Source: a virus. Taken from it: a stretch of DNA of 23,973 bases. Below the pieces are notes generated by a model, which was given only the letters and a program-made list of their open reading frames with translations, was not told where the DNA came from and did no database searches. A program made the position numbers and the translations under genes. The DNA lies in IMG/VR virus record IMGVR_UViG_3300042478_002738, positions 1-23,973 of that record; one strand, given 5' to 3'. Positions 4,144 to 20,062 of the stretch are shown piece by piece; positions within the stretch are counted from its first letter, which is position 1, and every line of letters begins with the position of its first letter.

Positions 4144-4644
4144 TCAGGCGGCGGCCAGTTGGCGGGGTGCGGCAGGCTGATTGGCCTCGCTGCTGGTGAA
4201 ACCCTGATAGCCGTACTTGGCGGCCAGCGTCTCCAGCCCGCCGGGGTTGCTGCGGCTCTTGCCGCACCATGCGGGCTTCCAGTACCAGCAGCTGCGGCCA
4301 GAGTGCCAGCGGCACTGCTGAGCCTTGAGCTGATCCTTGACGGGCTTGGTGTCACCCTGCACCCAGATCCAGTAGCCGATCAGGCTGATCTCCATGTTGG
4401 GGATCTTGAGCAGTTCAGCGATCACATCCATGATCTCTTGCTCCGACTTGGCGTTGTACTTGTAGGTGCGGCCGTCGCTGGTCTTGCCGTTCTGGCCACT
4501 CAGGGCAGCGTGGTAGGCGGCGTTGATGGCCTTCATCGTCTCCAGGTCGCCGCCAAGGTCGGGGTGGTGCTGGCGGGCGAGGTCGCGGTAAGCGCGCTTG
4601 ATTTCTTCAGGGGTGCTGAGGCCGGCGAAGTAGGTGGCGGTCAT
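4144..4644 (-). CDS. J-domain (DnaJ-like) protein with phage/cyanobacterial C-terminal domain
   Basis: This 166-aa protein starts with a compact J domain: EEIKRAYRDLARQHHPDLGG at residues 13-32 includes the essential HPD at 27-29, and helix IV (MKAINAAYHAAL) follows. J domains stimulate the ATPase of Hsp70 (DnaK). The C-terminal half has IWVQGDTKPVKDQLKA followed by a W/C-rich segment (CRWHSGRSCWYWKP). I associate this pattern with small J proteins of cyanobacteria and phages. It probably recruits host DnaK for replication or assembly. ATG at 4644 was chosen because it follows a leader shared with two nearby genes (CCACTCGCC box, then GCCATGACC). The gene has its own promoter-proximal repeat upstream and a terminator downstream. 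Confidence 0.85.
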   Translation of the reverse strand: MTATYFAGLSTPEEIKRAYRDLARQHHPDLGGDLETMKAINAAYHAALSGQNGKTSDGRTYKYNAKSEQEIMDVIAELLKIPNMEISLIGYWIWVQGDTKPVKDQLKAQQCRWHSGRSCWYWKPAWCGKSRSNPGGLETLAAKYGYQGFTSSEANQPAAPRQLAAA

Positions 4645-4683
4645 GGCTGGCTGGCGAGTGGTGGAGGGCGTCCCTCCGATGAA

Positions 4684-4710
4684 CATACCTTAGCGCGTCC
4701 CTTACGGTAT
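4684..4710 (-). promoter_or_regulatory. Promoter/operator repeat copy 1 upstream of the J-domain gene
   Basis: The 21 bp at 4684-4704 recur exactly at 5939-5959 upstream of another small gene. On the minus strand the element contains two TAAGG motifs 12 bp apart, the second reading TAAGGTATG. In this copy CATACC and GGTATG also form 6-bp inverted arms at 4684-4689 and 4705-4710. It lies 40-66 nt before the J-domain start, so it is suited to be a promoter or operator. Confidence 0.5.
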
Positions 4711-4732
4711 GGCGACCATCAGGGCGGCCAGT

Positions 4733-4957
4733 TCACAATCCGTCACGCTTGCGGCGCTGAGCACGCCTGACCCGCTCGGCGTGGGCTGCCTTGCCCTCCG
4801 GCGTGATGCGCTCCCAGCAGCCGGCACAGAGGGCGCCGTGGGCGCCGCGATGGATCTTGCCGCAGGAAGTGCAGCAGGGGCGCTCCACAGGCGGCAGGCG
4901 GCCGGCTTGGCGTTCTCTCCAGCGGCGCTGGTGTTCGGCGTTGCGGGGGTCAGGCAC
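4733..4957 (-). CDS. Small zinc-finger protein (CxxC...CxxC)
   Basis: This 74-aa basic protein has a four-cysteine metal site, CTSCGK and CAGCWE, separated by about 14 residues. A basic N-terminal segment (AEHQRRWRERQ) precedes it and a lysine/arginine-rich tail (HAERVRRAQRRKRDGL) follows. This layout is common in phage DNA-binding or HNH-like accessory miniproteins, but no HNH catalytic residues are present. GTG at 4957 is the only sensible start: it overlaps the end of the upstream gene by 8 nt, and the frame before it is out of character. Its role is unknown. Confidence 0.65.
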   Translation of the reverse strand: MPDPRNAEHQRRWRERQAGRLPPVERPCCTSCGKIHRGAHGALCAGCWERITPEGKAAHAERVRRAQRRKRDGL

Positions 4958-5692: not shown

Positions 5693-5899
5693 TTAGGCGA
5701 TCAGCTCGCGGGCGGGAGTATTTTCCACGCTTGCTGATGCGCTGCCGGCCCAGTAGGCCAAAAAACCGCTGTTCTGGTCCGCCCAGGACTGGGCGCGTTC
5801 GCGAGTCTTAAAAGAGCGGCCTAGGCAGCTGACTCCAGCAAACACGCTGTAGGAGCGGCCGGTCTTGCGAATTTCAACGGAAGGCGTGGTAGCGGTCAT
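5693..5899 (-). CDS. Hypothetical 68-aa protein
   Basis: The protein starts MTATTPSVEIRKTGRSYSVF and has a beta-hairpin-like half followed by a helix (TRERAQSWADQ). This resembles small domains sometimes found in phage and cyanobacterial proteins, but the match is too vague to name. ATG at 5899 follows the CCACTCACC leader box, and the 21-bp promoter-like repeat lies 40-60 nt upstream. It therefore seems to have its own promoter. Function unknown. Confidence 0.55.
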   Translation of the reverse strand: MTATTPSVEIRKTGRSYSVFAGVSCLGRSFKTRERAQSWADQNSGFLAYWAGSASASVENTPARELIA

Positions 5900-5938
5900 G
5901 GCTGGCGGTGAGTGGCGGAGCGCCTCGGCTCCTGTCCC

Positions 5939-5959
5939 CATACCTTAGCGCGTCCCTTA
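5939..5959 (-). promoter_or_regulatory. Promoter/operator repeat copy 2 upstream of the 68-aa gene
   Basis: This 21-bp stretch is identical to 4684-4704 and lies at a closely matching distance from its gene's start. On the minus strand it has two TAAGG motifs 12 bp apart. The inverted GGTATG arm seen at copy 1 is absent here, so the conserved unit is the TAAGG pair itself. Confidence 0.5.
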
Positions 5960-5997
5960 TGGGCTGGGGTGGCCGTAGGTGGCCGGTTGATGGATTG

Positions 5998-6321
5998 TCA
6001 CACTTCGCCCAGCAGCTCGCGGAACTGCTCCAGGCTCATCACCACGAACTGCTGCGACGGGTCGGTGGTGCCCTTGCGCTTCACCACCAGGGCATGGAGG
6101 CGCTTCCCGGCGTTGACCTGCTGCTCCATCGCATCGCGCAGCCAGGCGCCGAGGCTCAGGGTGCGGTGGTTCTTGCACTGGATCGCCGCGGCCGCGGTCC
6201 ACAGGTCGCCGCGGTCGAGGGTGGCACCGGCAGGGATGCGCTCGCAGGGGATGCGCTCCGCCAGGTAGTCGGCGATCAGCCGCTCAAAGGCGCTGCCCTT
6301 GCGTTTCTGGGGGTTAGCCAT
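5998..6321 (-). CDS. PD-(D/E)XK nuclease, Holliday-junction-resolvase-like
   Basis: This 107-aa protein matches the short resolvase-like nuclease pattern. An N-terminal basic stretch and a helix with Glu13 (KGSAFERLIADYL) come first. Then a strand and turn carry Asp39 (RGDLW), and Gln48-Cys-Lys50 (IQCKN) gives the E...D...QxK active site. A second helix (AWLRDAMEQQVNAG) and a final strand and helix (QFVVMSLEQFRELLGEV) complete the fold. It probably cleaves branched DNA during replication or before packaging. It follows the 128-aa gene with a 3-nt gap and belongs to that operon. VRR-type or generic endonuclease is the alternative. Confidence 0.75.
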   Translation of the reverse strand: MANPQKRKGSAFERLIADYLAERIPCERIPAGATLDRGDLWTAAAAIQCKNHRTLSLGAWLRDAMEQQVNAGKRLHALVVKRKGTTDPSQQFVVMSLEQFRELLGEV

Positions 6322-6324
6322 GGA

Positions 6325-6711
6325 TCAAGCGCCGAGACGTGCGGCGAGTCGCTGCAGAGCAGTCTGAGGGCAGCAGCTGCTCTCCACCTCGCTGCCGTCG
6401 GGCAGGTAGATCGCGTTGCGCTGGTACGGTTCCAGGGTGATGGGCGGGCTGTAGCTGGGGATAGGCAGCGGCGGCATCCACTCGCGGCGCCACCAGGCCA
6501 CCACGGCGCCACCCAGCAGCACTGCACGCTGAGCCTCGCCGGGGTGGGCCTGCGGGTCGGTGCGGGGCAGCCAGTCGCCGAACGTGAACGGGCAGGGCCG
6601 CAGGGGCGCCGCTGCGGGGGCTGCAGGCGATGGGGCGGGTGTGGGCACCGGCGGAGTGGTCGAGGCGCCTTCCTGGGCCACGGCGGCGCGTAGCTGCTGC
6701 AGGACGTTCAC
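6325..6711 (-). CDS. Hypothetical 128-aa protein with Pro/Ala-rich N-terminal linker
   Basis: A short N-terminal helix (NVLQQLRAAVAQ) is followed by a Pro/Ala-rich disordered stretch at residues 18-38. A compact domain then includes FTFGDWLPR, a hydrophobic AVLLGGAVVAWWRREWM and NAIYLPDGSEVES. The hydrophobic segment is short and flanked by charges, so it is more likely buried than membrane-spanning. ATG at 6711 overlaps the upstream stop (ATGA). The place between the 89-aa gene and the nuclease suggests a DNA metabolism role, but no family is recognised. Confidence 0.6.
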   Translation of the reverse strand: MNVLQQLRAAVAQEGASTTPPVPTPAPSPAAPAAAPLRPCPFTFGDWLPRTDPQAHPGEAQRAVLLGGAVVAWWRREWMPPLPIPSYSPPITLEPYQRNAIYLPDGSEVESSCCPQTALQRLAARLGA

Positions 6712-6977
6712 GGGGAGGGGATGGCGAGGAGACGTTGGGCGATGGTGTCGAGCGATTCACGAATGGGATCCGCGGCCGCACTGATCGAATTGTCCACGGA
6801 CATGGCCCCGATCAGTGTCGCGGCAGCCTGAAGGGAAGCATCGCCGCTCCATCCGTACTCCACAAAGCGACGAGCGATGGCATCAATGCGCGCCGCGTGG
6901 TCGGAGTAGGAGGAAGAACTTCGAACGCCGGATGGGGTATTCCACGTGATGAGACGGGACGTGTCGGCCGATTCCAT
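6708..6977 (-). CDS. Hypothetical 89-aa helical protein, first gene of a three-gene operon
   Basis: The protein is mainly helical in its second half (ARIDAIARRFVEYGW, then SLQAAATLIGAMSVDNS and SLDTIAQRLLAIPSP). It is uncharged to slightly acidic and has no cysteines. It is the promoter-proximal gene of an operon with the 128-aa protein and the resolvase-like nuclease, coupled by ATGA. A promoter about 190 nt upstream, inside the repeat block, could drive it. No family is recognised. A nucleoid- or replication-associated role is possible but unproven. Confidence 0.55.
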   Translation of the reverse strand: MESADTSRLITWNTPSGVRSSSSYSDHAARIDAIARRFVEYGWSGDASLQAAATLIGAMSVDNSISAAADPIRESLDTIAQRLLAIPSP

Positions 6978-7169
6978 GCAGCGATAGCGGGTAGGGGCAT
7001 CCTACCGCCAGTTGCACCCATCAGCACCAAACAACCGGATTTCGGAGGGTTGAAAGCGATTCCACCCCATTTCACCCCATTTCAACCCTGGCGGTGTGAA
7101 ATAGAATCCTGTCCACGACAGGCGCCTTGCCCTATTCCACCCATTTCACCCCATAGGGAGAGAATTACT

Positions 7170-7199
7170 TTTATACTCTCTCTCTTTATTTTTTCTTAA
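7170..7199 (-). promoter_or_regulatory. Sigma70-type promoter within the AT-rich core
   Basis: On the minus strand TTAAGA (7194-7199) is followed after 18 bp by TATAAA (7170-7175). This is the best-formed -35/-10 pair I noticed in the window. It would transcribe toward the 89-aa gene operon with a leader of roughly 190 nt. Repeats on both sides could act as operators. Confidence 0.5.
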
Positions 7200-7285
7200 C
7201 CTCCAGGGCACTCTCTCCCTTCTTTCCCCGTAAGTGGGTGGAATGGGTGGAATTGCCCCTAACACCAGTCATTCCAATGGATTAC

Positions 7286-7317
7286 GTTCACACCGCCCGG
7301 TGTGGAGTGGTGTGAAC
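7286..7317. other. Nested hairpins in the repeat block
   Basis: Two alternative perfect stems share sequence. A 9-bp stem pairs GTTCACACC (7286-7294) with GGTGTGAAC (7309-7317). A 7-bp stem pairs CACACCG (7289-7295) with CGGTGTG (7298-7304) across only two bases. Such overlapping dyads can extrude as cruciforms or bind dimeric proteins. The outer arms resemble the iteron motif. Confidence 0.55.
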
Positions 7318-7363
7318 GGGGTGGAATGCCGGGTGGAATGCCCTCAGTCGGGGTGAGGGCGCT

Positions 7364-9919
7364 TCAGGCAGGCGGCAGCCACTGCAGCGACCGCTGCACC
7401 TCCCTGAGCTCCCCCATGTCCGGGGCATCGCTAACGACGTGCTCCAGCCAGGCGCGGCGCTCGGCAGCCTTCATGCGCTTTTGCGGCAGGCACCACTTGC
7501 GCAGCTGATCGAGGGGCACAGGGATAGGGCCATTGGCGCGGCGCCACTCTTGACCACGGGCGAGCAGCTCCTTGACCTTGCCGGTGGCGTCGGCATCCCG
7601 CACGGCGCACAGCACCCGATCGCGTTCGACGATCAGCATGCCAGCGAAGCTGATCGCTGCCATCAGGGTGTCGGCGCTGATCGGGCCATTCATGCGAATG
7701 CCGCTGGCGCCGCAGCGGATGGCGTGGATGAGCAGGGCCAGGGTCAGCGTGGTTCCGCGCAGCTTGATGATGTAGCCCTTGTCTTCCTGCAGAGTGCGCG
7801 CCCTGCGCATCTCCAGCAGGTCATCCACCCACTGGGTCCACAGGGGGATGGCATCTTCCGCCAGCAGGATCTCGCAGCTCTTGCCGGGCGCCGGCATCGG
7901 CAGCCGCGCCGCGGTGGCGTCAATGGCCTTGTAGAGGTTGGATAGCACCGGGGTGAGATGCACCGTGGTGGGGCGGTAGCGGTAGTCCCACTCAGGGAGC
8001 TGCACCATGTGGAACCGGGCCCACAGGCCATCGGCATCCGGCACGCCCTGGCAGGCCTTCACGTCTGCCTCCCATAGGCCAGCGATGCGGGCCGGCTGCA
8101 GGTTGCCGAACAGCGAGCAGCGCGGGTTCTGGATGAGCACCTCGGTGCGGTTAACCCGATCAGTCATCAGGGACGACCCAGAGCCGATTGAGAGCCACTT
8201 CGGGCGATCACTCTTGCCGCCACGCTCACGGCAGAGGTTGGCGAACCAGCCAGAGAGCTCATCGTGAAACGACAGGTGGCCTGGCGTCTCGGCGCTGAGC
8301 AGGTTGATCTCCAGCTTCTCGATGGTGGTGTCGGTGGAGATGATGTAGCGCCGCTCGGGCTGCGGGTTCTCTGCCAGAAAGTCGCCGACCGGATCTTCAG
8401 AGCCGCCGGCGTCGTCGCCATTGCGGCGCCGCTTCTCGGCCTCCTCGGCCTTGGCCTTGCCGCGGTTCCACTCTTTGATGGCAGCCTCATGCTTCTCCCG
8501 CTCTGTGGCGTGCCAGGCCACCAGCGGCCGTTCGATGGCGGGTGCGGTGATGGGCGACTTGCCGGCGCTCACGCCACCGATGGACATGCCCCACAGCACG
8601 GCGATGCCGCGTACCTCATCGCCTGAGCGTGGGACGCAATGGGCCCGGTTGCCGATGATCGATGCCACCGTGGTGAGGATCGGCAGGTAGAAGCCGCGTG
8701 CGGGAAGCTGCTGCTCTTCGGCGTAGCTCAGCAGCTTGGTGGCCATATCCGGCGGGAACAGCAGCTGAGGAGTGACGACCGCGGCCAATTCCCCGGCATC
8801 GCGGAAGCTCTGCAGCTCTGCCAGTAGGTCGCTGCGGGCAGCAGCGGCGTCTTCATCGTCGAGGGGCTCCGTCTGCCATGGATCGGCCGCTGCGGGCTCC
8901 ACCGGCGCATCAGGCGGGATGAACTGCTCGCCGTTGAGGGGTGGGGTTGGTGGGTCAGGCTTCGGCTTGGGCTTGTCGATCACGAACAGCGAGCGCTCGC
9001 CGAAGCTGTCGTGATCCTCGGTGCGGACATAACCCCAGGTGCGGCCATCGTGGCCGGTGACCGTCTCGCCCTTTTTGCTGCAATCAGGGGCTGATTTCGT
9101 CTCGCCGTGGCAACACCAGACCGAATCGCCGTCCTGATGGATGCTGCAGGCGCCGGAGTGGTCGCGGCCGCACATCGGGCACGGTTGCCGCTGGCTGCTG
9201 TTGCGCCAGGTGCCGGATGCGTTGCTGTAGCTGCGCGGTCCGCGTGTGACCTGAGGCGAGATTGAGCGTCGTGTTTTCGGCCGCAGTGGTCGATCGCCGC
9301 AGAAGACGCCCTGCAGCAGCGCGAACCATTCAGCCGGCAGCGGCTGCGCGTCGGCAGGTGGCCGGCCAGCCCAGGCGTACTGATCGTCGTTGTCGGTGAA
9401 GTGGGATTCTTTGGTGTAGTGCTGGCCCAGCACCACCACCTGAGTGCCGTGCTTGGCAAAGACGGCAAACTCCTCGCCCTTGTCATCGGGCCCACCTTCG
9501 CCAATGCCGACCTTCACGGTCTTGCCGCCGGCGGCAAGGATGGCCTTCTGCTCGGCGGTGACGGTGTAGACCAGCTTCAGCCGGTCGCTGTTGCCGGTGC
9601 GCACGATGCGCCAGGTGTCGGCTGTGTACGGCTCGCAGCCATGCTGATGGCAGAACGCCGCGGCCCTCGGCCCGTCGATGTCGATGGCGATGTGGCCAGG
9701 GGCGGCGCCGATGTGCCAGCAAACGCATTCAGGCGCCGTGGTCTGTAGCTCGGCCACGGGCACGCCGGCATGGTTCTCCCAGCCGTCACCAACGAGTGGC
9801 CGTTTGTCAGGCGCGCCAGGGAGCAACGGCCCGAAACTGGCGAGCATCGGCAGGCGTTCTAGGCGCCAGCGATCGGGCCCATAGGGGCCTGCCGCAGCAG
9901 CGGCTTGAGGTGTCTGCAC
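7364..9919 (-). CDS. Primase-polymerase/DUF3987 helicase-like replication protein
   Basis: This 851-aa protein probably primes and unwinds phage DNA. The N-terminal region resembles the AEP (prim-pol) domain: KRPLVGDGW at about residue 39, then HIAIDIDG with paired acidic residues at 80 and 82. A cysteine cluster at about 247-270 (CPMCGRDHSGACSIHQDG, then VWCCHG) looks like a primase zinc ribbon. After a Pro-rich linker (320-350) comes a DUF3987-type module with a P-loop-like GGVSAGKSP at about 448-456, a charged coiled insert (about 480-510) and HLSFHDELSGWFANL as a Walker B-like site. The start is GTG at 9919, two bases after the RHH stop. The gene converges on the iteron-like block, which fits a replication initiator role. 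Confidence 0.85.
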   Translation of the reverse strand: MQTPQAAAAAGPYGPDRWRLERLPMLASFGPLLPGAPDKRPLVGDGWENHAGVPVAELQTTAPECVCWHIGAAPGHIAIDIDGPRAAAFCHQHGCEPYTADTWRIVRTGNSDRLKLVYTVTAEQKAILAAGGKTVKVGIGEGGPDDKGEEFAVFAKHGTQVVVLGQHYTKESHFTDNDDQYAWAGRPPADAQPLPAEWFALLQGVFCGDRPLRPKTRRSISPQVTRGPRSYSNASGTWRNSSQRQPCPMCGRDHSGACSIHQDGDSVWCCHGETKSAPDCSKKGETVTGHDGRTWGYVRTEDHDSFGERSLFVIDKPKPKPDPPTPPLNGEQFIPPDAPVEPAAADPWQTEPLDDEDAAAARSDLLAELQSFRDAGELAAVVTPQLLFPPDMATKLLSYAEEQQLPARGFYLPILTTVASIIGNRAHCVPRSGDEVRGIAVLWGMSIGGVSAGKSPITAPAIERPLVAWHATEREKHEAAIKEWNRGKAKAEEAEKRRRNGDDAGGSEDPVGDFLAENPQPERRYIISTDTTIEKLEINLLSAETPGHLSFHDELSGWFANLCRERGGKSDRPKWLSIGSGSSLMTDRVNRTEVLIQNPRCSLFGNLQPARIAGLWEADVKACQGVPDADGLWARFHMVQLPEWDYRYRPTTVHLTPVLSNLYKAIDATAARLPMPAPGKSCEILLAEDAIPLWTQWVDDLLEMRRARTLQEDKGYIIKLRGTTLTLALLIHAIRCGASGIRMNGPISADTLMAAISFAGMLIVERDRVLCAVRDADATGKVKELLARGQEWRRANGPIPVPLDQLRKWCLPQKRMKAAERRAWLEHVVSDAPDMGELREVQRSLQWLPPA

Positions 9920-9922
9920 GGT

Positions 9923-10087
9923 TCACGCCTTGGCGGCGAGGGCCTTGTCTGCCTGCTCAATCAGCATGCGGACGGCCTGGGAGCGGCTCTCGATGCCGGG
10001 GGTGGTTGCCGCGATGCGGTCGAGGGCCGCCATGTGGGCGGGTTTCACCATGACGTGCAGCGGCACGCTGCGGGCCTGGGTGGGCAT
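9923..10087 (-). CDS. Ribbon-helix-helix DNA-binding protein (RHH 1)
   Basis: This 54-aa protein has the RHH/CopG pattern: a strand (ARSVPLHVMV), helix A (PAHMAALDRIAATTPG) and helix B (SRSQAVRMLIEQADKALA). Such dimers insert paired strands into the major groove and usually repress their own promoter. ATG at 10087 is only 3 bp from a perfect dyad (10090-10121), which makes autoregulation likely. It is the first gene of the operon with the primase, separated by three bases. It is divergent from the SF2 helicase, so a single operator could set expression of both replication arms. Confidence 0.8.
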   Translation of the reverse strand: MPTQARSVPLHVMVKPAHMAALDRIAATTPGIESRSQAVRMLIEQADKALAAKA

Positions 10088-14339: not shown

Positions 14340-14347
14340 ATGATTGA
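14174..14347 (+). CDS. Possible 57-aa frame upstream of the winged-helix gene
   Basis: ATG at 14174 opens a frame beginning MAMPTTARTRWWALCVPP and ending IPRHD. It overlaps the next start by 8 nt, like the other coupled genes here. The composition (Ser/Arg/Ala-rich, no obvious fold) is not convincing, and a stable hairpin lies inside it, so it may be a leader region instead of a gene. Confidence 0.2.
   Translation: MAMPTTARTRWWALCVPPQSSASRLSLDPSRSAAGSGFVRLRAAASNERVASIPRHD
14212..14233. other. Perfect 8-bp hairpin in leader region
   Basis: GCTTTGCG (14212-14219) and CGCAAAGC (14226-14233) form a perfect stem with a 6-nt TTCCAC loop. No T-tract follows on either strand, so termination is unlikely. 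It could be a protein-binding dyad or a transcript structure ahead of the wHTH gene. Confidence 0.5.
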
Positions 14348-14807
14348 ACCCGCCTACCTGGCAGCACTGCGTCATCAGGTGCGTTGTGAACTACTGCTGA
14401 CGATGGTGCAGCTAGAGCAGCTGTGCCCTAGCTGGTGGGCTGACCTCAGCGAGATGGCCCAGCAGCTAGGCACCGATCGCGCATCCCTGAATCGGTCGCT
14501 GACCAAGCTGGAGGCAATGGGATTGATCAGGCGCGAGCGGATCAGCAACACCGGCGGGAACTGGGTTTGGTGGGTCAAGCGTTGCGAAGATGACCAGCCG
14601 TGTCCAGACGCCGAGCCGGCGTGGAGGCTGCGCGATCTTCAGCGCGGGAGAGTCATTCGCGTCACGATCCGCGGCAGGTGGCAATGGGCGGAGCGCCAGG
14701 GGATTCCTCGGGCAACGATGCAGAGCTTCCTTGGCGGCCACCAACGCACGATGAAAGGCCGATGGCAGGTGGCAGGCAGTCCATGGGATGACGAATCTGG
14801 CTGCTGA
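14340..14807 (+). CDS. Winged helix-turn-helix regulator (MarR-like N-terminus)
   Basis: This 155-aa protein has a winged-helix DNA-binding domain in residues 20-85. The LSEMAQQLGTDRASLNRSLTKLEAMGLIRRE stretch is a classic helix 2, recognition helix and wing entry, and GGNWVWWVKR is the wing strand. The rest (ARG/TRP-rich, with RGRVIRVTIRGRWQWAERQGI) is not recognised. The start is ATG at 14340. It may regulate the long plus-strand operon downstream or the divergent RHH 3. MarR-like is a fold description only, since a ligand-binding domain is not evident. Confidence 0.7.
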   Translation: MIEPAYLAALRHQVRCELLLTMVQLEQLCPSWWADLSEMAQQLGTDRASLNRSLTKLEAMGLIRRERISNTGGNWVWWVKRCEDDQPCPDAEPAWRLRDLQRGRVIRVTIRGRWQWAERQGIPRATMQSFLGGHQRTMKGRWQVAGSPWDDESGC

Positions 14808-15298: not shown

Positions 15299-15447
15299 CC
15301 TGGTACGTCCCATCCGCGATCCTCGCCGCACTGCGCGGCTACCAGCCCTCCGCCGGCACTGGCGGGTTCCTGCTGCAGGCGCCCGCCCCTGGCCTGGTGC
15401 TGGCCAATCCGCCGTTCAGCACGGAGGCCAGCCGTGTTCAACGCTGA
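15295..15447 (+). CDS. 50-aa miniature methyltransferase-like remnant
   Basis: Within only 25 residues this peptide carries PSAGTGGFLL (residues 18-27) and LVLANPPFS (34-42). These equal motif I and motif IV of N6-adenine methylases of the HsdM type, normally separated by about 50 or more residues. It therefore looks like an internally deleted methyltransferase whose SAM and catalytic loops were fused. It begins with ATG at 15295 (ATGA overlap) and ends 14 nt inside the intact methyltransferase gene. The small size argues against activity; chance similarity is possible. Confidence 0.5.
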   Translation: MTWYVPSAILAALRGYQPSAGTGGFLLQAPAPGLVLANPPFSTEASRVQR

Positions 15448-16867
15448 CTTCTACCCCACGCCGCCCGACGTGGCGGCCACCATGCTCGACCCACTCGACC
15501 TGCGCGGCCGGGTGGTGGTGGAGCCTTCCGCCGGCTCGGGCAACCTGGTACAGGCCTGCCTAGAACGCGGCGCCGCCGAAGTGCTCATGGTTGAGCCTGA
15601 GCCGAAGCTGCGGGCCATCCTCGCCGGCATTCCCGCCGACTGCCACCTGATCGGCAACGACTGGCTGGCCGTCACTGCCGAGCAGATCAGCCACGTCGAT
15701 CTGATCGTGATGAACCCGCCGTTCTCGGCCGATGAGCGGCACATCCTGCACGCCTGCGAGATCGCTCCGCCAGGCTGCGAGATCGTCGCGCTGTGCAACT
15801 GGAACACCGTCAGCAATGAGCACTGGGGCAACAGGGCTAGCCGGGAGCTCTGCACGCTGATCGAGCAGTACGGCAGCCGCCAGAAGCTGGGCCCGGTGTT
15901 TGAGGACGCCGAGCGCACCACGCGCTGCGAGATCGGCCTGGTGCGGCTCACCAAGCCCGGCCAACGTGCAAGCGGCGCTGATGAGTTCGACGGGTTCTTC
16001 CTGGGGCCCGACGACATCGAGGCCGAAGGCCAGGGCCTGATCAAGTACCGCCGCAGCCGCGACCTGGTAAACCGTTACGTGGAGGCCTGCAAAATCTATG
16101 ACCAGCAGCTGGAGGCCGGCGTGCGTCTGCAGGCCCAGGTGGGCGGCATCTACAAAGGCGAGCTGGGCATCCAGATCAGCATGGAAGGCTGCGCCGCCAG
16201 CCGCAACCGGTTCCGCAAGCAGCTCCAGAAGTCATTCTGGGAGTCGGTGATCGCCGAGATGCTCCCCCAGGAGATGGCGACCAGCCAGCTAGCAGGGGAC
16301 ATCAACAAGTTCGTGGAGCAGCAGACGAAGGTGCCATTCACCGAGCGGAACCTGTTCAGGATGCTGCAGGTGATCGCCGGCACCACTGACCAGCGGATCG
16401 ACCGGGCGGTCGAGGCCGCATTCGATGAGCTCACCCGCCACACCGCTGAGAACCGGTGGAACGTGGAGGGGTGGAAGACGAACGACGCCTACCTGTTCAA
16501 TCAGAAGTTCATCGTGCCTTACCTGGCGGAGAAGGACTGGAGCGGCGGCACAGTCAGCCTGAAGCAGTACTCCGCCAACTTCCCCAGAATCTGCGATCTG
16601 ATCAAGGCGCTCTGCTACATCACGGGTCGGCCATATGCCGAGGTGGAAGAGCCATCGGGTGGCTACAGCTACATCGATGCCGGCGTCTGGTACGACTGGG
16701 GCTTCTTCGAGTTCAAAATGTTCAAGAAAGGCACGGGCCACTTCAGGTTCAAGGACTTGGATGACTGGGCCGCCCTTAATGCCAGGGTGGCCCGCATCAA
16801 GGGCCTGGTGCTGCCGGAGAAACTCCGGCGGCCGAAGCAGCGCAGGCGGCAGGGGGTGGCGGCATGA
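15434..16867 (+). CDS. N6-type DNA methyltransferase with DUF4942-like C-terminus
   Basis: This 477-aa protein starts with a Rossmann methylase domain: motif I EPSAGSGNLVQA at residues 30-41, an acidic MVEPEPKLR equivalent to the SAM-ribose site, and motif IV IVMNPPFS at 91-98, the NPPF form of adenine-N6 enzymes. The C-terminal half ends in a block GVWYDWGFFEFKMFKKGTG with FRFKDLDDWAALNA, which fits the DUF4942 pattern common in phage and plasmid methylases. GTG at 15434 is the start; it is preceded in the overlap by the 50-aa gene. It likely protects phage DNA or controls genes. Target sequence unknown. Confidence 0.85.
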   Translation: MFNADFYPTPPDVAATMLDPLDLRGRVVVEPSAGSGNLVQACLERGAAEVLMVEPEPKLRAILAGIPADCHLIGNDWLAVTAEQISHVDLIVMNPPFSADERHILHACEIAPPGCEIVALCNWNTVSNEHWGNRASRELCTLIEQYGSRQKLGPVFEDAERTTRCEIGLVRLTKPGQRASGADEFDGFFLGPDDIEAEGQGLIKYRRSRDLVNRYVEACKIYDQQLEAGVRLQAQVGGIYKGELGIQISMEGCAASRNRFRKQLQKSFWESVIAEMLPQEMATSQLAGDINKFVEQQTKVPFTERNLFRMLQVIAGTTDQRIDRAVEAAFDELTRHTAENRWNVEGWKTNDAYLFNQKFIVPYLAEKDWSGGTVSLKQYSANFPRICDLIKALCYITGRPYAEVEEPSGGYSYIDAGVWYDWGFFEFKMFKKGTGHFRFKDLDDWAALNARVARIKGLVLPEKLRRPKQRRRQGVAA

Positions 16868-17007: not shown

Positions 17008-17279
17008 TCACCCTCACCACCCCCACCCAGCAGGCCATGGCCCGCATCGCCACCGCGCCTGTCACCAGCGATCAGGCCCGCCCCACGCCGACAGCATCCA
17101 CCCGGTTATCCCTGGCCGCCTGCCCCATGCCGGGCCGGTGCCCTGAGCCCTGCCAGACCTGCACCGCCGTCGCCCGCAGCGTCGCTGCTGAGCTGGGGCA
17201 GATCCTTCGGTCGCGCCACGGTGGGTCCAGTTCGGTGGCGGACTGGCTGGATGGATTCACACACACCCCAACGCCATGA
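17004..17279 (+). CDS. Hypothetical 91-aa protein with Cys cluster
   Basis: A Thr/Ala-rich N-terminal half is followed by CPMPGRCPEPCQTC (cysteines at about 40, 47, 51 and 54), which could hold one zinc ion. A helical segment (AVARSVAAELGQILRSRHG) leads to a polar end. It is coupled to RHH 4 and to the glycosyltransferase by ATGA overlaps. The N-terminal part looks disordered. No known family is evident, and the metal site is inferred from spacing alone. Confidence 0.5.
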   Translation: MITLTTPTQQAMARIATAPVTSDQARPTPTASTRLSLAACPMPGRCPEPCQTCTAVARSVAAELGQILRSRHGGSSSVADWLDGFTHTPTP

Positions 17280-19648
17280 CTCGCTGCATCGTCATTGGGT
17301 GGGACGCCCACCACAACTGCATCGGCCGGGCCCATCTGATCGCCCGTGCCGCCGCGCTGGCATTCTCTGAGGTCCAGCTGATCGCCTTCGGGTTCACCCA
17401 TCTAGGCCGTGAGGTGTGGGCGCCGTTGCGGGGTGAGCCGATCACTGTCATCCCTGAGCCCAAAACCGTCTCAGCGCTGATTCATCGCTGCCGCCGCGTC
17501 GCCGCGGCCACCGATGCAGACGTGGTGATCGCCTGCAAAACCCGGCTGCCGTCAGTGCTGCTGGGCATCGCCATCGCTGAGCGCAACGGCGCCCGGCTGA
17601 TCGTTGACATCGACGATCACGAATTGGCGTTCATCGATCCGAACGATGCCCCGCTCTCGCCGCTGGCGCTGCAGCAGCAGTTTCCCGAACGGCTTGGCGA
17701 GGCCCCCTACTCGCCGTTCTGGACGCTAGCGGCGCAGCAGCTCACCAAGGCCGCTGATCACATCATCACCTGCAACACCGAGCTGCAAGCGCTGCACGGC
17801 GGGGGGATCATCGCCCACCTGCGCGACCTAGATGCGTTTCAATCGCCGCAGGCTGAGCCGCCCGCTGAGCTGCTGGAGATCCGCCGCCGCTGCACCCCGT
17901 TGGTGATGTTCCTAGGCACGCCGCAGCGGCACAAGGGCCTCGACGCCATCGCTCAGGCCGTGGCCCAGGTGCCAGGTGCTGGCGCGGCATTCATCGGCCG
18001 CATTCCCGACCGAGGGATTGTGAACGACATCACCCGCGCAGCCGGCGATCAGGCCGCGATGATCGACAGCGTGCCATTTGCGGCTATGCCCGCCTGCCTC
18101 GCGCTAGCTGATGCGGCGGTGCTGCTGCAGGATCGGTCCCGCGAAGCCAGCCAGTATCAACTGCCGGCCAAGGGCTGCGATGCGCTGGCGGCCGGCATCA
18201 GGCTGATCGCCACACCTACCCCGCCGCTGCAGATGCTGGCGGACTGGGGGTTTCGGGGGATTTCATTTGTGGAGTCGCCCGCCGAACTGCCCGACGCGAT
18301 CCGCCAGCTGCAGCCACTGAGCGCTGCCGATCGGGAGGTGAATCAGCGCCTCGCGCACCAGCACCTGTCCTATGCCTCTGGAGCTACCACCATGCGCCAC
18401 CTCCTGTCCCAGCCCAGCCGCCGAGCGATCAGTTACGCCGCCAGATCATTGATCGGGCTGCCTGAGCCTGGCCGGCGGATCATCTTGATGCTCTGGAAGC
18501 AGAACGACGCTGGAGTGTTCGGCAGGCGGGTGGACATGGTGGCCAAGTATTTGGCCAGCCGCGATGACGTGGACCAGGTGCTGCTGGTGGAGAAACCGCT
18601 TAGCACGCTGGACCTGCGCAAGCTGGAACAGAGCCAGAACCGGCATCACCGGCTGTTGCACCGTTACGCGCAGCGGAAAAAGGTAGGGCTGCTGGACAAA
18701 GGCAAGCTGGCCATCCGCACGCCGGTGATGCCTGCGGGGCTCAGCGTGGCTGAACAGGGCGACTTCATTGAGCGGTACTGCCAAGGGCTGGTGGAGCAGT
18801 CCCTGGCGCGATTCCCCGGCGCCAAGGTGGGCCTCTGGGTCTATCCGTACTACCGCCACGCCGAGCGGATCGCCGCAGCCCTACCCACCGACTATGTGAT
18901 CGCCGACGTGGTAGACGATCACAGGGCATGGCCCAACACATCCGCCGAGCGGAAGACAGAGCTCACGGAGCACTACCGCGCCATCCTTGATCTGGCCGAC
19001 ATGGGCCTTTACAACTGCCGGCACACGCTGCAGAGCATCGGCAGACTCAGCCCCACGAAGGCGCAGGTGGTGGCCAATGGCGTGGATTTCACCGGCGCAC
19101 CGGACGCGGAAGAGGTGGCTGACCTGCGGGAGCAGTTGGTAGCGCCCGGCAATTTCCGGGGGATCATCGGCTATGCCGGAAACCTGGAGTCGAAACTGGA
19201 CTGGCCATTGGTGGAGCACGTGGCAGCCAAAAACCCTGACGACCTGGTGCTGATGATCGGCAGCACGCACGTGGCCACCCAGCTGCCACAGCGGCGGAAC
19301 ATTCGCTACGTGGGCCCAGTGCCCTATGACGAGCTGCGCGCCTATCTGGCGACGTTTGACGTGGCGATCATCCCGCACCTGAAAACGAATCTCACGGCGG
19401 CGATGAACCCGCTGAAATGCTGGGTGTACGCCACGCTGGGGATTCCAATCATCAGCACCGACATCCCTAACCTGCCGGAGGATCTGCCGCAGCTGAAAAT
19501 CACGCGCAGTCAGGGCGGGTTTACGAAGAACGTCCGCAAGGCGCTGAATTTGGGAGCTGAGATGGAGGCTGACGAGATCCTTGAGATCATCCGCCGCCAC
19601 AGCTGGGCCAGCCGCCTGGAGTCGGTGGTGGACTGGTTTCATTACTGA
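17276..19648 (+). CDS. Tandem two-domain glycosyltransferase (GT-B fold)
   Basis: This 790-aa protein contains two GT-B glycosyltransferase units. In unit 1 (about residues 1-390) a Rossmann start and VIACKTRLPSVLLGIA, IVDIDDHELAFID, then FLGTPQRHKGLDAI and a C-terminal segment resemble GT4-type enzymes. Unit 2 (about 397-790) restarts with RRIILMLWKQNDAGVFGRR. It has IADVVDDHRAWPN, VVANGVDF, IGYAGNLESKLDW, NIRYVGPVPYDELRAYL and FDVAIIPHLKTNLTAAMNPL, as in TuaH-like GT4 enzymes. The two could work sequentially or one could be non-catalytic. No signal peptide is visible. It sits in the early-type train right after methylase genes, so targets may be DNA, virion or host surface. Its composition matches its neighbours. 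Confidence 0.85.
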   Translation: MTRCIVIGWDAHHNCIGRAHLIARAAALAFSEVQLIAFGFTHLGREVWAPLRGEPITVIPEPKTVSALIHRCRRVAAATDADVVIACKTRLPSVLLGIAIAERNGARLIVDIDDHELAFIDPNDAPLSPLALQQQFPERLGEAPYSPFWTLAAQQLTKAADHIITCNTELQALHGGGIIAHLRDLDAFQSPQAEPPAELLEIRRRCTPLVMFLGTPQRHKGLDAIAQAVAQVPGAGAAFIGRIPDRGIVNDITRAAGDQAAMIDSVPFAAMPACLALADAAVLLQDRSREASQYQLPAKGCDALAAGIRLIATPTPPLQMLADWGFRGISFVESPAELPDAIRQLQPLSAADREVNQRLAHQHLSYASGATTMRHLLSQPSRRAISYAARSLIGLPEPGRRIILMLWKQNDAGVFGRRVDMVAKYLASRDDVDQVLLVEKPLSTLDLRKLEQSQNRHHRLLHRYAQRKKVGLLDKGKLAIRTPVMPAGLSVAEQGDFIERYCQGLVEQSLARFPGAKVGLWVYPYYRHAERIAAALPTDYVIADVVDDHRAWPNTSAERKTELTEHYRAILDLADMGLYNCRHTLQSIGRLSPTKAQVVANGVDFTGAPDAEEVADLREQLVAPGNFRGIIGYAGNLESKLDWPLVEHVAAKNPDDLVLMIGSTHVATQLPQRRNIRYVGPVPYDELRAYLATFDVAIIPHLKTNLTAAMNPLKCWVYATLGIPIISTDIPNLPEDLPQLKITRSQGGFTKNVRKALNLGAEMEADEILEIIRRHSWASRLESVVDWFHY

Positions 19649-20000: not shown

Positions 20001-20062
20001 AGGCCCAGATTGCCTGCCCTTGATTCCCTCCTTTATTCACAACCTTCTACCCTTTCATTGCC

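Follow-up and report, generated by a model that had tools for sequence, protein, structure and literature searches.

Converging iterons behind a DUF3987 primase-helicase gene of a tailed phage: a candidate replication origin co-inherited with the C-terminal half of the protein

Immediately behind a primase-helicase gene in IMG/VR virus record IMGVR_UViG_3300042478_002738, short repeats converge from both sides on an AT-rich tract. Is this block a replication origin and, if so, which protein, and which part of it, reads the repeats? The window, i.e., the whole stretch of DNA analyzed, is a linear virus fragment of 23,973 bases. We consider it highly probable that the block is a phage replication origin of the PICI type, in which two iteron sets converge on an AT-rich melting site right behind the 3' end of the initiator gene, and that its reader is the C-terminal half of the DUF3987 initiator encoded next to it.

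The repeat block and its surroundings

The first-pass annotation had described tandem 9–10-bp units (ATTYCACCCC), forward to the left and reversed to the right of an AT-rich tract. Eight exact copies of the 9-bp unit ATTYCACCC in 7059–7339, four on each side in these orientations, bear this out (Table 1). When the whole window was searched for TTYCACCC, nine copies were found against an expectation of 0.85, eight of them within 7060–7338, and 0 of 100 shuffles reached nine. Degenerate copies lie at ~7079, around 7093–7102 and in 7287–7318. The AT-rich core recognized earlier holds the AT-richest 40-mer of the window (78% A+T; window mean 36%), and the perfect dyad is real and one of two, with 10-nt arms at 7285–7294/7309–7318 and at 7046–7055/7080–7089. 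The outer-to-inner iteron offsets are 75 and 83 bp. The block had been placed beside the primase gene; more exactly, it lies immediately downstream of the stop codon, the outermost right iteron (7339) being 25 nt from the stop codon end at 7364.

Table 1. Positions of the repeat block, the adjoining gene and the exchanged segment in the window
Feature	Position	Strand	Basis or remark
Outer left iterons ATTCCACCC (7059), ATTTCACCC (7069) and degenerate ATTTCAACC (7079)	7059..7087	+	
Inner left iterons ATTCCACCC (7134), ATTTCACCC (7143)	7134..7151	+	step 9 bp
AT-rich core, proposed melting site	7152..7235	none	contains the AT-richest 40-mer, 7159–7198
Inner right iterons, reversed, GGGTGGAAT (7236), GGGTGGAAT (7245)	7236..7253	-	step 9 bp
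Perfect 10-nt dyad CGTTCACACC/GGTGTGAACG	7285..7318	none	arms resemble degenerate iterons
Outer right iterons, reversed, GGGTGGAAT (7319 and 7331)	7319..7339	-	
Primase-helicase, proposed initiator, 851 aa	7364..9919	-	ORF; PF13148 E=4e-46
Final 92 codons, modeled as a winged-helix domain and proposed to read the iterons	7367..7642	-	AlphaFold, Foldseek
Exchangeable cassette: primase-helicase C-terminal half and origin block	7054..8964		identity profile vs. L007 and L011; junctions approximate

Other signals were sought at the block. An iteron plasmid origin of the RepA/RepE type, recognized by a DnaA box beside the iterons, was rejected: no DnaA box lies near the block, and the sole TTWTNCACA of the window is at 20033. 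A structured RNA was likewise discarded, an Rfam search of the block giving no match. The GC skew across the linear fragment has no clear switch; it is uninformative and gives the origin reading no support. The linear record is incomplete, so another origin may exist elsewhere in the phage.

The C-terminal half of the primase-helicase belongs to the DUF3987 family (PF13148; 158.3 bits vs. a curated cut-off of 27), for which a helicase function was predicted by Kazlauskas 2018 (PMC5862659). The N-terminal half (residues 1 to about 320) resembles primases and has, as judged by eye, a zinc-finger-like motif. AlphaFold modeled the whole C-terminal half too poorly for use (pLDDT 44), but the last 92 residues reached a pLDDT of 71.6 with the helix order and β-hairpin of a winged helix; their best Foldseek matches in the PDB were largely winged-helix proteins, none of them significant (best E=0.15). 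Origin reading has been proposed for C-terminal winged helices of related primases (Kazlauskas 2018, PMC5862659). From the model and the co-inheritance described below, we infer that the C-terminal domain binds the iterons, probably through the terminal winged helix.

No relative of the primase-helicase was found in isolated phages by tblastn, and a scan of genome contigs gave a single, distant match. A cyanobacterial host is likely, given that the neighboring helicase has its best isolate match in Synechococcus phage S-H1 (38%) and that cyanophage S-2L is matched at 40% by the N-terminal domain called N3 below, which occurs in relatives; a freshwater habitat is a guess. Elsewhere in the window, a C5 cytosine methyltransferase gene adjoins a ParB-like gene (1215–2934, - strand), and a second methyltransferase-like gene, with DUF4942, lies at 15434–16867 (+ strand), its best matches being phages of other hosts; both loci possibly serve DNA modification. 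A 790-aa gene that follows DNA-metabolism genes (17276–19648, + strand) is glycosyltransferase-like, perhaps with two such halves (by eye; PHROG E=0.004, weak). In the gene cluster downstream of the proposed origin, 5888–6030 and 4633–4777 are about 68% identical and apparently paralogous.

Repeat type and C-terminal half in natural recombinants

A protein search yielded 17 IMG/VR loci, and alignment of the C-terminal half added four new close loci (L026, L031, L034 and L039) and the distant L041. In about 20 IMG/VR relatives the layout and position of the repeats are as in the window, with two sequence versions, GGGTGGAAT (version A) and GTCCCAAA (version B). Absence of the repeats from close relatives that share the primase gene had been named as a result that would speak against an origin; every close relative having the region carries the block at the equivalent place. 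Proteins with a C-terminal half 85–100% identical to that of the window are followed by GGGTGGAAT repeats, and those with a half about 44% identical by GTCCCAAA repeats, which converge likewise around a different AT core. The repeat type follows the C-terminal type in 21 of the 21 loci tabulated, the window included, although some of these loci are near-identical and do not represent 21 independent events; L020, a partial, identical record, comes in addition. The earlier origin interpretation is supported: in more distant relatives the layout persists, with a different repeat sequence that tracks the C-terminal half.

The two halves of the protein recombine independently. The N-terminal halves fall into three types, N1 (the window type), N2 (L014, with PF09250 Prim-Pol and PriCT_2) and N3 (L011, related to the cyanophage S-2L primase/polymerase), and the C-terminal halves into two. 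N1 is joined to C-terminal type A in the window, L004 and L005, and to type B in L006–L010, L012, L013, L015, L016 and L018; N3 is joined to type A in L011 and L017, and to type B in L026, L031 and L034. This factorial requires at least two independent exchanges. The repeat type tracks neither the N-terminal primase domain, nor the neighboring helicase (57–100% identity among loci, regardless of repeat type), nor the downstream gene, which in most loci with either repeat type shares 87–100% identity with its L007 counterpart. Types A and B seem to occur together in one sample, since L014 (A) and L031 (B) bear one metagenome number (3300035670).

The DNA of the window was compared with that of L007, a type B locus. 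Over residues 1 to about 320 (positions 9963 to about 8964) identity is 97–100%; it falls to mostly 47–66% in the C-terminal half and to 40–50% in the repeats, and 6987–7054 is again 100% identical. With L011 (type A), the pattern over the primase gene and the repeats is the reverse. Judged from these profiles, the window is itself a recombinant, and the profile against L007 delimits an exchanged cassette of about 1.9 kb that comprises the C-terminal half and the origin block. Next to this region, between the block and the downstream gene, the window, L004, L005 and L020 share an 89-aa ORF (6708–6977, - strand) that L007-type relatives lack; in the latter the sequences matching 6987 and 6713 nearly adjoin, and by this comparison the ORF marks a small insertion.

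In the loci compared the repeats were never found apart from the C-terminal half, whereas the N-terminal half freely recombined. Co-exchange of the cassette thus points to the C-terminal half as the part that would read the origin. Physical proximity contributes to this co-inheritance, because the exchanged segment spans the entire C-terminal half; and because types A and B differ throughout that half (about 44% identity), the specificity determinant is not narrowed from it to the winged helix. The natural recombinants act like a ready-made domain-swap experiment that would place origin specificity in a single half of a functionally uncharacterized protein.

Arrays beside other DUF3987 genes and alternative explanations

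Starting from a gammaproteobacterial relative, genomes of its phylum and then of one class within that phylum were surveyed for PF13148 genes; two class-level searches returned essentially one genome set and were counted as one sample. Arrays of 7-mer repeats were scored from -100 to +350 around the stop codon against shuffles (p≤0.02). They were found beside the DUF3987 stop in 17 of 50 proteobacterial loci, i.e., in only about a third, and in 3 of 139 control windows taken from these loci (Fisher p=9e-9). The initial sample, from which the idea came, gave 12 of 31 (controls 2 of 85), and the second, taken afterwards, 5 of 19 (controls 1 of 54, p=0.004). Among steps of ≤15 bp, 35 of 44 were exactly 9 bp, and most arrays converge (e.g., ++-- and +++---). 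The motifs differ between loci (e.g., TGCGACA, ACTGACA and AAGTAGC). Motifs were shared by 21 of 58 pairs with a C-terminal similarity of ≥40 bits vs. 40 of 407 pairs below it, a difference whose p-value is only indicative, as the pairs are non-independent and close relatives share DNA by descent. Viral scans with four single distant DUF3987 proteins gave 3, 1, 1 (the contig of the query itself) and 0 loci. In L052, L050 and L054 the arrays 3' of the DUF3987 stop appear inside the start of the next ORF rather than in a gap. A four-block layout recurs in the window (7059–7339), in L012 after the primase stop and in L107 (8997–9284); four-block layouts with unrelated iteron sequences have outer-to-inner offsets of roughly 66–83 bp, mostly 75–79.

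It is conceivable, at somewhat less than even chance, that DUF3987 proteins form a large class of self-contained initiators that had gone unrecognized, every one with a 9-bp iteron of its own in a PICI-like origin just behind the gene. The C-terminal half plus origin would then be a plug-in specificity cassette swapped between co-circulating phages, perhaps selected by incompatibility or by origin-targeting nucleases, with PLE and the ICP1 nuclease Odn as a reported precedent (PMC8263062). The word "iteron" is absent from PMC10803314, in which a replicating element with DUF3987 was studied, and from PMC5862659; the link between DUF3987 and iteron origins is probably new, as judged from a literature search that lacked most subscription journals. 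With it, origins could be located in mobile elements and uncultured phages, and origin compatibility groups predicted.

Could the repeats have another role? As an operator cluster they would bind a regulator of the co-directional genes downstream, which could be the primase protein or a separate repressor. The block does lie between two co-directional genes, upstream of a gene cluster, and origins and operators often overlap. The good promoter reported by the first-pass annotation was not recovered, however, no site in 6500–7700 passing a sigma-70-like scan; the helicase and downstream genes, readable in most loci, do not co-vary with the repeat type; and the layout recurs behind DUF3987 genes with other neighbors and in a tested PICI origin. 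An operator cluster therefore fits less well than an origin; it is weakened and, in our estimate, quite improbable.

The block might instead be an origin read by a different initiator, with the primase-helicase recruited afterwards. The helix-turn-helix protein encoded at 14340–14807 would be an example, since it is weakly similar to phage replication initiators (PHROG E=9e-6), but the repeat type tracks the DUF3987 C-terminal half and arrays adjoin DUF3987 genes in unrelated genomes, so that we rate this reading even lower than an operator. Least probable of all is that the repeats serve partition by a ParB-like protein, packaging or recombination, the link to the C-terminal half being physical proximity only. 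Adjacent segments do travel together, and the window encodes a ParB-like protein (2257–2934) and a terminase small subunit (694–1239); nevertheless, the repeats never part from the C-terminal half, while the opposite side of the gene recombines freely, and arrays recur at DUF3987 stops across genomes.

These data suggest that (i) the block is a well-supported candidate origin with a strong specificity prediction; and (ii) its initiator would be the adjacent primase-like/DUF3987 primase-helicase. At such an origin, the C-terminal half, probably by its terminal winged helix, would bind the iterons on both sides, the DUF3987 ATPase would then assemble on or melt the AT core as a helicase, and the N-terminal half would act as the primase that starts synthesis for replication.

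Comparison with known origins

A primase-helicase that binds iterons itself, as proposed here, is known from phage P4 (alpha at ori1 and crr), in which the two iteron sites are kilobases apart and the helicase is of another family. In SCCmec, the isolated C-terminal domain of the initiator helicase Cch2 binds direct repeats situated just behind the Cch2 gene (PMC7581432). The repeats thus lie as in the window, but Cch2 is a D5-type helicase with a separate polymerase/primase and only three 5-nt iterons. Shuffling of an origin with its cognate DNA-binding domain among relatives is shared with RepA/ori of the PLE satellites of Vibrio cholerae (PMC7145576, PMC8263062); PLE RepA differs in belonging to the RepA_N initiators, in having its DNA-binding domain at the N terminus and semi-palindromic iterons of about 30 bp, and in lacking any predicted helicase or primase. 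The pRN1 orf904 replicon also has its origin just downstream of the replication-protein gene, but as a 100-nt stem-loop rather than iterons (PMC4234260).

The closest likeness is to PICI/SaPI origins. The SaPIbov1 and EcCICFT073 origins (PMC6092414; PMC7581432, citing Ubeda 2007) have two sets of short iterons, one on each side of an AT-rich region, directly behind the pri-rep gene, as the window has them 3' of the primase-helicase gene. SaPI Rep uses its C-terminal domain to read the origin (PMC7581432). The experimentally tested EcCICFT073 origin (PMC6092414) was analyzed as a positive control for the layout. Its CTGTCTACC-type 9-bp units run forward at 9012, 9021 and 9089, 9100, 9109, and in reverse at 9141, 9152 and 9220, 9229, with one extra copy per orientation off the pattern (9173 forward, 9068 reverse). 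Both origins have 9-bp units in four blocks, with outer-to-inner offsets of 77 and 79 bp in EcCICFT073 vs. 75 and 83 bp in the window, whereas the iteron sequences differ. Spacing that agrees between unrelated sequences, in very few cases so far, suggests that the nucleoprotein geometry is common to them.

The element itself is not a PICI, which is a satellite with an int/alpA module and without tail genes of its own: the window is a tailed-phage fragment and, incomplete as it is, encodes a minor tail protein, a terminase small subunit, an exonuclease and an Erf-like annealing protein. Nor does its initiator belong to the PICI families (D5_N/DUF5906 or DUF927), since it matches PF13148 only; EcCICFT073 Pri-Rep is a D5_N/DUF5906 protein, and BLASTP found no meaningful similarity between the two. 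By analogy, the candidate origin would work like that of a PICI, yet neither element nor initiator is in the PICI family as defined. A PICI-like origin layout is thus seen here in tailed phages, beside an initiator of another ATPase family.
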